Shown here piece by piece: positions 12,712-16,143 of a DNA stretch of 39,353 nucleotides (position 1 is its first letter; every line of letters begins with the position of its first letter). The DNA is taken from positions 1 through 39,353 of the forward strand of contig CALLPQ010000154.1 in NCBI GenBank assembly GCA_938015425.1, given 5' to 3'. The notes beneath the pieces are model-generated. The model saw only the letters and a program-made list of their open reading frames with translations. It was not told the origin of the DNA and made no database searches. The translations under genes and the position numbers were made by a program. The stretch comes from an uncultured Parvularculaceae bacterium (lineage in GTDB: Bacteria; Pseudomonadota; Alphaproteobacteria; Caulobacterales; Parvularculaceae).

Positions 12712-13713
12712 TTATTTTTGCCAGATAGACCCTTGGCGGAGTAGGTCCGCAACTTTGCCGGTCCGCTTGCCATTGGTTGGATGGTTATTCCAGAAATTTT
12801 GGTCAAACGAAGCTTCGGCAGGGTCTTCATAGAGAACACCTAATGCGATCGGGTAATCCGACTCTGGCATATCAATCAACATTTGGGCGATGGCTTTATT
12901 TCTTGAGTCATGCACGAGAATGTCATCAAGGCTGATCCCGTTTTCACCAAGGGTTGCAACTTCTAGTTGCATCGTTTTGGCATTAAAAATAATACCTTTT
13001 GTTTCTTTAGCAAAAAGAAGCGGCTTACCGTGTTGAACATGAAGCTGATTATCCGTGGCCGCTGCTTTTTCGGTAAAGCCTTTGAAAACGTCTGCATTAT
13101 AAACAATGCAGTTTTGATAGATTTCCACAAAGGCAGTGCCATTATAGTGGTGAGCCGCTTTTAGGGTTTCACTAAGATGCTTGATATCTGTATCTATCCC
13201 GCGGGCAATAAACCGGGCGCCGGCCCCAAGGGCAAAAGCGCCGGCGGAAACAGACGTTTCAATAGACCCTTTTGGACTTGAGGGAGAACGGGTACCGGGG
13301 CGCGAAGTCGGAGAGTATTGACCCTTTGTCAGGCCATAAATCTCGTTATTAAATAATAGAACCTGCATATTGATGTTGCGGCGAAGTAGATGCAGTAAAT
13401 GATTCCCACCAATGGATAATCCGTCACCGTCGCCGGTCACCATCCACACATCAAGGTCAGGATTGGCGAGTTTCAACCCTGTGGCGAATGCGGGGGCGCG
13501 CCCGTGAATGGTGTGAAACCCATAAGTCGACATATAATAAGGAAAGCGCGAAGAGCAGCCGATGCCGGAAACAAAAACAGTTTCGTCAGGTTTGGCTTCA
13601 ATATCCGCCATGGTTTTCTGGACGCATTTTAAAATTGCATAATCACCGCAGCCAGGACACCAGCGGACTTCTTGATCGGTTGCAAAATCTTTAGCGGTTA
13701 ACGGTGCGTTCAT
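12712..13713 (-). CDS. korB: 2-oxoglutarate/2-oxoacid:ferredoxin oxidoreductase, beta subunit
   Basis: VRWCPGCGDYAILKCVQKTMA, GIGCSSRFPYYMSTYGFHTIHGRAPAFATGLKLANPDLDVWMVTGDGDGLSIGGNH TPP-binding pattern. Confidence 0.95.
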   Translation of the reverse strand: MNAPLTAKDFATDQEVRWCPGCGDYAILKCVQKTMADIEAKPDETVFVSGIGCSSRFPYYMSTYGFHTIHGRAPAFATGLKLANPDLDVWMVTGDGDGLSIGGNHLLHLLRRNINMQVLLFNNEIYGLTKGQYSPTSRPGTRSPSSPKGSIETSVSAGAFALGAGARFIARGIDTDIKHLSETLKAAHHYNGTAFVEIYQNCIVYNADVFKGFTEKAAATDNQLHVQHGKPLLFAKETKGIIFNAKTMQLEVATLGENGISLDDILVHDSRNKAIAQMLIDMPESDYPIALGVLYEDPAEASFDQNFWNNHPTNGKRTGKVADLLRQGSIWQK

Positions 13714-13721
13714 GATGGTTC

Positions 13722-14258
13722 CTAAATAGTCGCTTTGCCAAATATGGCTTTATTCAATTGACGGAATTGTATTGCTGAAATGGGTTGCACGATAAACCCT
13801 TCAAGGCTTTTTGGTTGTGCGAATAGACGGTTCTTTGTGTACACAATACGGCATGCCACATCTCTGTTTTCCAGAACCGTAACTCTTACGGCGTCTGTGG
13901 ACCAAGCATCGCGGGGCGTTGACCAATCATCGTTTAATGCACGAAGTGCTGTGTAAAGATCATCTCTTGAGGTGATGTTTGTAAGTTTTATGGCTTCGGG
14001 GTCGCTCGATGATTGCTCATCTGCTAAATCAGGTCGCACGGGGGCCGTAATTTTTTTTGGTTTTTTATGGTCTACTTTGAAGCTAACTGTGCCCGTAAGG
14101 TCCACATCGAAACAGATTGTGCTCCGGTCTGCATCTGTTGGTTGGCTGGTTTGCGCACCAACCATTTGTGGGGGAATAGAGGTAACGGTAAACGCGCAAA
14201 TTGCGAGCAATGTTTTAGTGGAATATGATTTAGTAGGATATGATTTTGTAATATGCAT
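13722..14258 (-). CDS. uncharacterised secreted protein encoded between korA and korB
   Basis: 178 aa; N-terminal hydrophobic segment TLLAICAFTVTSIPPQMVGAQT (signal-like); 1 bp after korA and 8 bp before korB, same strand. Confidence 0.75.
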   Translation of the reverse strand: MHITKSYPTKSYSTKTLLAICAFTVTSIPPQMVGAQTSQPTDADRSTICFDVDLTGTVSFKVDHKKPKKITAPVRPDLADEQSSSDPEAIKLTNITSRDDLYTALRALNDDWSTPRDAWSTDAVRVTVLENRDVACRIVYTKNRLFAQPKSLEGFIVQPISAIQFRQLNKAIFGKATI

Positions 14259-14259
14259 A

Positions 14260-16143
14260 TTATTCAGCCGCTTGAATAGCGCCGGGAATATTGGCGCGGA
14301 TTTGCTCTAATATTTCGGAAATTTTAAAGGGTTGTCCTGAAACTTTTGTCAGCGGTATTACATCGACCTCTAACTTGTCCCTTAATAAGGTGGCGCATTG
14401 TCCCATATTCATTTCCGGTAATAAAATGCGGTCATATCCGGCTAATAGTTTGCCCAGATTTTTAGGTAAGGGGTTCATATAGCGTAGGTGGATTTGCGCA
14501 ACGTTTAAACCTTCTTCCCGGGCCTGATTAACAGCGCGCCAAATTGCGCCGTGGGTTGATCCCCAGCCAACCACCACGAGGGGGCCGTTTTCGTCTCCCT
14601 GTTCGACAGTTTGATCAGGAATAAAATCAGCAATCGTATCAATTTTTGCAAATCTCATATCGCTCATGGCTTGGTGGTTATCCGCATCGTAGGAAATGTC
14701 TCCTGTGCGAATATCTTTTTCAATGCCGCCAACACGGTGGGCGAAACCCGCTTCACCGGGGGCGATCCATGGCCGGCCAAAGCTTTTTTCGTCGCGCTTC
14801 CAGATGGCGCGCTTCACGGCATCACCGTCGTTTAAATCGATGCCATCAGGAACCGGATTTGTTGATAGGGGCTCTATCTTGCTCATATCCGGCAAGGCCC
14901 AAGGGCCCGATGCGTTGGCGATATAGCCGTCAGTCAACAAGAACACGGGCGTCATATGTCGCAGGGCAATACGCACGGCCTCGATAGCCGCATAAAAACA
15001 ATCACCGGGGTCACTAGCGGAAACAACAGGAACCGGAGCATCACCATTCCGTCCGTATACAGCTTGATATAAATCCGATTGTTCAGTTTTTGTTGGTAAC
15101 CCTGTAGAAGGGCCACCACGTTGTGAATTAACAATCACCAAAGGGAGCTCGGCTGATATAGCCAAGCCGATAGCCTCTGTTTTCAAGGCAATACCGGGAC
15201 CGGAGGAAGATGTAATCCCGATTGACCCGCCATAGGAAGCCCCGATAGCGGCACAAGCGGCGGCAATTTCGTCTTCCGCTTGAAAAGTGGCAACGCCTAA
15301 ATCACCCATTTTAGTGAGATGGTGCAAAAGCGGGGAGGCAGGGGTGATAGGGTATGACGCAAAAATGATTTCTTTGTCGGCCAATTCCCCTGCGGCAGCG
15401 AGTCCAAGGGAAAGTGCATAAGCGCCGGTAACCGAGCGATAATCACCCGATGCCATGGGTGCTTCCCCGATTTCGAATTGAGGAATTTCGGCAGAGATTT
15501 CCACCGTTTCGGCATAGGCGTGACCTGCATTCAGTGCCGCGATATTGCCGGCTAGGGCGTCAGGCTTATTGGCAAATTTAGTTTTAATCCATTCTTCAAT
15601 GGGGGCGCGTTCGCGGCCAAACATCCACAATACGGCACCAAGGCCCCAAAAGTTTTTACATTGCTCCGCCCCTTTTTTGCCAAGGCCGGTGTCTTTAACC
15701 GCTTCCATGGTTTGGGTCGAGATGGCGATTTCAACCACTTGAAACCCGTCAAGTTCACCTGTTTCACGGGGGTCGGTTTCAATATTGGCCTTGGTAAAAT
15801 TACGGGCGTTAAAAGCGTCCGTGTTCAAAATAATCAATGCGCCTTTGGGCAAAAGTGGCAAGTTCACTTTTAGGGCAGCCGGGTTAAAGGCGATTAAAAC
15901 ATCAGGCGCATCCCCCGAGGTGGCGATGCGTCTTGCGCCCAGATTAATCTGGAAGGCAGAAACCCCAAAGGTTGTGCCCACGGGGGCCCTGATCTCGGCC
16001 GGAAAATCAGGGAAGGTGGTGAAATCTGCACCGGACAGTGCCGTAGATTCGGCAAATTGTGAACCAAGGAGTTGCACTCCGTCGCCGGAGTCTCCGGCAA
16101 AGCGCACTACGATTGATTGTTGTTTGGGGATGATGGTTGTCAT
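14260..16143 (-). CDS. korA: 2-oxoglutarate/2-oxoacid:ferredoxin oxidoreductase, alpha (gamma-alpha fusion) subunit
   Basis: VVRFAGDSGDGVQLLGSQFAESTALSG, FPDFPAEIRAPVGT, ITSSSGPGIALKTEAIGLA, QRGGPSTGLPTKTEQSDL. Confidence 0.95.
   Translation of the reverse strand: MTTIIPKQQSIVVRFAGDSGDGVQLLGSQFAESTALSGADFTTFPDFPAEIRAPVGTTFGVSAFQINLGARRIATSGDAPDVLIAFNPAALKVNLPLLPKGALIILNTDAFNARNFTKANIETDPRETGELDGFQVVEIAISTQTMEAVKDTGLGKKGAEQCKNFWGLGAVLWMFGRERAPIEEWIKTKFANKPDALAGNIAALNAGHAYAETVEISAEIPQFEIGEAPMASGDYRSVTGAYALSLGLAAAGELADKEIIFASYPITPASPLLHHLTKMGDLGVATFQAEDEIAAACAAIGASYGGSIGITSSSGPGIALKTEAIGLAISAELPLVIVNSQRGGPSTGLPTKTEQSDLYQAVYGRNGDAPVPVVSASDPGDCFYAAIEAVRIALRHMTPVFLLTDGYIANASGPWALPDMSKIEPLSTNPVPDGIDLNDGDAVKRAIWKRDEKSFGRPWIAPGEAGFAHRVGGIEKDIRTGDISYDADNHQAMSDMRFAKIDTIADFIPDQTVEQGDENGPLVVVGWGSTHGAIWRAVNQAREEGLNVAQIHLRYMNPLPKNLGKLLAGYDRILLPEMNMGQCATLLRDKLEVDVIPLTKVSGQPFKISEILEQIRANIPGAIQAAE

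Follow-up and report, generated by a model that had tools for sequence, protein, structure and literature searches.

KorA and KorB, the two subunits of a 2-oxoacid:acceptor oxidoreductase (KOR), are cytoplasmic enzymes by family. Why is a gene with an export-like signal lodged between korA and korB, on the same strand and nearly touching both? The question is raised by contig C154, whose 39,353 nucleotides form the window analysed here. It belongs to a 2.5-Mb draft genome (G000, 78% complete) of a family that is probably Parvularculaceae; the family search yielded no second genome from the window's genus. A preliminary description took the arrangement as a hint of either a functional link with the enzyme or a recent insertion. 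Choosing between the two requires establishing that the gene is real, and then looking at what other genomes of the family carry at the same place.

Gene X and its junctions

All the features of interest lie on the minus strand:

14260..16143, minus: korA, fused gamma-alpha subunit of 2-oxoacid:acceptor oxidoreductase, 627 aa; TIGR03710; Pfam POR and POR_N
13722-14258 (ORF 14258..13722), minus: gene X, 178 aa, ATG start, TAG stop; member of the T1 family, occupying the korA-korB slot
14154..14258, minus: predicted signal peptide of X, residues 1-35, cut between VGA and QT (rule-based scan)
14112..14114, minus: Cys49 codon of X, invariant in T1 alignments
13851..13853, minus: Cys136 codon of X, invariant in T1 alignments; possible disulfide partner of Cys49
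13720..13723, minus: putative Shine-Dalgarno-like AGGA of korB, read from the sequence, overlapping the X stop codon
12712..13713, minus: korB, beta subunit, 333 aa; Pfam TPP_enzyme_C; related to the beta chains of PDB 5b46 and 6n2n

KorA scores 589 bits against TIGR03710 (OAFO alpha), above the cut-off of 482.75. KorB scores 249 bits against TIGR02177, just below the cut-off of 261.9; it is PorB/KorB-like, and its relation to the solved beta subunits is clear.

The geometry is exactly as first described: a single base pair lies between the end of korA at 14260 and the 178-aa frame, and 8 bp separate X from the start of korB at 13713. The interval 13714-14260 given at that time includes both junctions; the gene proper is 13722-14258. 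The X-korB junction reads ATT-TAG-GAACCATC-ATG, with AGGA 6 nt before the korB ATG: the Shine-Dalgarno-like site of korB thus overlaps the stop codon of X, as had been claimed, and the junction sequence supports the tight coupling of X with its neighbours. The predicted export of X is likewise supported, by a rule-based test (not SignalP) that recognizes the hydrophobic stretch LLAICAFTV followed by the VGA/QT site. A 15-nt tandem repeat of 2.7 copies at 14210-14250 (TKSYPTKSYSTK; TRF score 54) lengthens the n-region of this signal peptide.

Codon usage supports the frame of X, with +0.13 bits per codon against values between -0.29 and -0.02 for the remaining five frames; the in-frame score is below that of the neighbouring genes. 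Around X, promoter and terminator signals did not rise above chance.

A protein family confined to one place

Used as a single query against 61 genomes, X returned nothing but noise besides itself, because G079, which carries the sole strong homolog, was outside that sample. Since this search was empty, the korA-korB intervals were tabulated in all relatives possessing both genes, and the synteny table revealed a family, T1, made of X and the slot proteins of G079, G077 and G081, all four encoded between korA and korB. The X-like frames of G077 and G081, first spotted by eye, gave a three-sequence profile. Applied to 398 genomes of the order, this profile produced four matches, every one of them between korA and korB; the match in G079 (E 1.4e-11) was new and independent. 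Profile searches found no credible copy of T1 outside the slot in the 398 order genomes or in 385 genomes of the class. A class-level match in G510 (E 0.005) was rejected: chance alone should yield such a value among 385 genomes, and the frame does not have the T1 pattern.

The relation of X to the G079 protein reaches a tblastn E of 2e-12, with X alone as query and a small database, and a shuffle Z of about 24; between the mature domains of X and the G077 protein, Z is 7.8. Alignments of X with both beat all 400 shuffles. The link to the G081 protein is weak when taken directly (Z 2.6) and passes through G079 (Z 9). All four members share two invariant cysteines, a signal-like N-terminus (by rule) and the order korA-X-korB.

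X is a genuine coding gene, as its homology to the G079 protein in the same slot indicates. The preliminary description had envisaged a spurious frame with neither signal peptide nor homologs: X has a signal-like N-terminus and homologs, and these same-slot homologs, together with the in-frame codon bias, rule that reading out.

What the protein resembles is another matter. Comparisons of X with Pfam, NCBIfam, PHROGs, PADLOC, PDB sequences, and plasmid and phage records gave no credible match. The AlphaFold model of full-length X is poor (pLDDT 54). The mature T1 domain from G081 is modelled with a pLDDT of 82 and a pTM of 0.78, as a helix, antiparallel strands and a C-terminal helix; a Foldseek search with this model against PDB and viral models retrieved nothing significant.

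Contents of the junction across the family

A korA of this type is found in 35 of the 62 family genomes and is missing from several genera, so that korAB itself is patchy. Thirty korA-korB junctions could be resolved. Twelve contain an exported-protein ORF, 11 contain only a palindromic repeat, and seven are contiguous, with 3-14 bp between the two genes; 18 junctions out of 30 thus hold no gene. The slot of G005, the nearest relative, is unreadable, since one contig break falls within korA and the other precisely at the first codon of korB (L153, L154). The repeat-only junctions comprise about 129-205 bp of repeat-like DNA, and inverted arms of 13-37 nt were present in all four of those tested. 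These palindromic, REP-like repeats of the 11 genomes are of several types (gaps L125, L130, L141, L143-L146, L176, L180), and DNA similar to them also precedes the slot gene in G061 and G067.

The order korA-X-korB, which it had been proposed to tabulate, is kept by the T1 homologs and is far from general. Contiguous korAB in relatives, with X elsewhere as stray cargo, had been named as a finding that would count against the arrangement: the contiguity occurs, but the X family was never found elsewhere in the genomes searched.

The twelve slot genes fall into about six groups without detectable mutual similarity. T1 occupies G000, G079, G077 and G081, with a possible relative in G080; a second family, T2, occupies G071, G006, G061 and G067; G065, G036 and G070 have singletons. 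T2 is cysteine-rich and exported by rule, with GCCS-type repeats (L140, L150, L142, L177), and has no match in Pfam or NCBIfam where tested. Both T1 and T2 are strongly matched in the slot only. Distant motif relatives of T2 exist elsewhere, as two shorter proteins in G076 (L256, L257); no credible relatives of the T1, G080 and G036 slot genes were found elsewhere in the family.

Every one of the twelve passes the signal-peptide rule, compared with 26 of 171 ORFs in the sampled regions, slot genes included. With an expected pass rate of 10-15%, about six independent groups at about 13% each would all pass by chance some 5 times in a million, an approximate figure based on our own signal rule. 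Beyond this family, ORFs inserted in korA-korB gaps do not pass the rule in the five clearest cases. The slot genes usually have a lower GC content than their flanks, several genomes showing a deficit of some 10 points or more, and some overlap their neighbours outright: a TGATG joins korA to the slot gene in G077, G079 and G080, and an ATGA joins it to korB in G077, G081 and G080.

On a korA tree of the 30 genomes, a quick tree with some weak branches, at least seven changes separate junctions with and without an exported-protein gene; T1 and its look-alike need five, and T2 four. The gene trees of T1 and T2 join members across genera, against the korA tree, although the sequences are few and divergent, the conflict for T1 being that of a quartet of very divergent sequences. 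In G067 (L177:8600-9098), the inserted gene for a cysteine-rich exported protein lies just upstream of korB and has fused to it, in frame, a 54-bp duplicate of the korB 5' end that matches the original exactly; the codons after the 54 bp are similar but diverged. Judging from the sequence, the duplication has the look of a scar left by an insertion for which korB supplied the homology. No mobility gene, recombinase, mobile element or site was seen at the junction.

Are subunit pairs commonly interrupted in this family? The control is one clean pair, etfB-etfA, which is contiguous in 28 of 28 readable loci of the same family, so such pairs are not generally interrupted. A second candidate control, sucC-sucD, was dropped: its genes are separated by others in many family members, so it is not a tight pair, and operon disruption therefore occurs elsewhere in the family too. 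In the sucD loci (L187-L216), the intervening genes often include a conserved frame whose end resembles LNTGE..SERTKTDLP.L and which, by eye, may encode a cupin.

Explanations for the slot

The reading that we consider likely makes of the korA-korB junction a slot into which small accessory genes for exported proteins are inserted, and in which they replace one another, relying on kor for their expression; X is one occupant. Two facts sit badly with it: T1 was not found elsewhere in the genomes searched and T2 has only distant motif relatives there, an unusual pattern for mobile cargo that might point to a link with kor; and a neutral insertion site does not explain why the occupants are always exported.

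A rival conjecture is that X descends from a single ancestral exported gene of the kor operon, whose descendants diverged beyond recognition and were lost many times. Occupants share place, direction and predicted export, T1 and T2 are essentially slot-only, and a weak alignment with the G080 protein, possibly a T1 relative, extends along T1 (hhalign P 0.003). However, the slot proteins vary from 121 to 264 aa and from 2 to 11 cysteines, and T1 compares with T2 and with the G065, G036 and G070 proteins at chance level. In the pair G036 and G080, the korA and korB ends are about 90% identical up to the junctions, whereas the slot DNA, 822 bp in one and 439 bp in the other, has an identity at the shuffle baseline (38.7%). 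Unrelated genes between conserved flanks in close relatives are what an accessory-gene hotspot predicts, and we leave the common ancestor a rather small chance.

A dedicated partner of the oxidoreductase, such as a redox or sensing protein of the envelope tuned to KOR activity, would account for the tight translational coupling read in the sequence on both sides of X, and for a position limited to korA-korB and reserved for exported proteins. Yet T1 is present in only 4 of 30 junctions, and is thus not conserved with korAB as a subunit or accessory would be; most kor junctions do without any gene, seven of them being contiguous, unrelated proteins take the place of X elsewhere, and the enzyme itself is cytoplasmic by family. 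X is probably not a KOR subunit, and the partner hypothesis seems to us improbable. Of the two initial suggestions, then, the functional link is made unlikely by the turnover of occupants, and insertion is favoured by the junctions without a gene and by the unrelated occupants of close relatives; the insertion of X, whose closest homolog is about 30% identical, need not be "recent".

Still harder to sustain is the birth of genes de novo, in which read-through of intergenic or repeat DNA would produce short, transient frames with hydrophobic N-termini. The singletons without homologs in the family, the lower GC of slot genes and the repeats carried by the junction would agree with it, but T1 and T2 are each found in two genera and retain their cysteines and signal peptides, the coupling is precise, and open frames of up to 264 aa are kept in GC-rich relatives; we think it very improbable. 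As for a spurious ORF or an assembly artefact, which a 78% complete draft might invite, the same-slot homologs, the in-frame codon bias and similar arrangements in the more contiguous genomes G036 (about 20 contigs) and G080 (about 40 contigs) leave it next to no credit.

A probable replaceable slot

If the junction is indeed a replaceable slot, X, which has neither an evident promoter nor an evident terminator, would depend for its production on read-through from korA and on reinitiation at that gene's stop codon, and the stop of X would sit on the ribosome-binding site of korB. The preprotein would be cleaved to a periplasmic or secreted protein of about 143 residues, its two conserved cysteines probably disulfide-linked. 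Each occupant would come, go or be exchanged as one unit reaching from the korA stop to the korB start; the likeliest route is homologous recombination in the conserved genes on either side, with an illegitimate join now and then. That the occupants turn over fast, are small and are predicted to be exported suggests conflict at the cell surface: X may be an accessory envelope protein acting in phage adsorption, bacterial competition or protease inhibition. A role in envelope defence or competition is our best guess, and the weakest step of the argument.

Insertion of unrelated genes into operons is a known phenomenon, operon mosaicism, attributed to horizontal transfer and gene displacement. 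The korA-korB junction resembles it, as a conserved operon broken by unrelated lineage-specific genes with sharp boundaries and conserved neighbours; it differs in that the two subunits of one enzyme are parted, repeatedly, and always by exported proteins. Integration hotspots likewise have accessory genes that turn over quickly at a fixed place in the chromosome, with core genes on both sides, but here single genes with coupled start and stop codons lie inside a presumed transcription unit, and neither recombinase nor mobile element was seen at the junction. Integron gene cassettes are also single genes, apparently without a promoter of their own, which are expressed from outside and exchanged at a single site; the korA-korB slot, in contrast, holds one gene per site, and its right boundary is the korB start. 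By analogy only, small exported proteins or lipoproteins with fast turnover bring to mind superinfection-exclusion and competition proteins, although X has no credible match in PHROGs, PADLOC or phage records.

A more specific version can be put forward tentatively, and we would sooner doubt it than defend it: a cassette slot without recombinase, reserved for exported proteins, with korA and korB as homology arms, expression coupled to kor, and occupants that serve envelope protection or competition and are swapped between species. No earlier report of a korA-X-korB arrangement was found in the literature searched, which was covered in part, and we know of no precedent for unrelated exported proteins filling, time and again, one fixed junction between an enzyme's two subunits. 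If the bias towards export is selective, the slot would be a marker for new envelope-acting proteins without known relatives, and the close species that differ in their occupants would offer ready-made natural replacements for functional tests.
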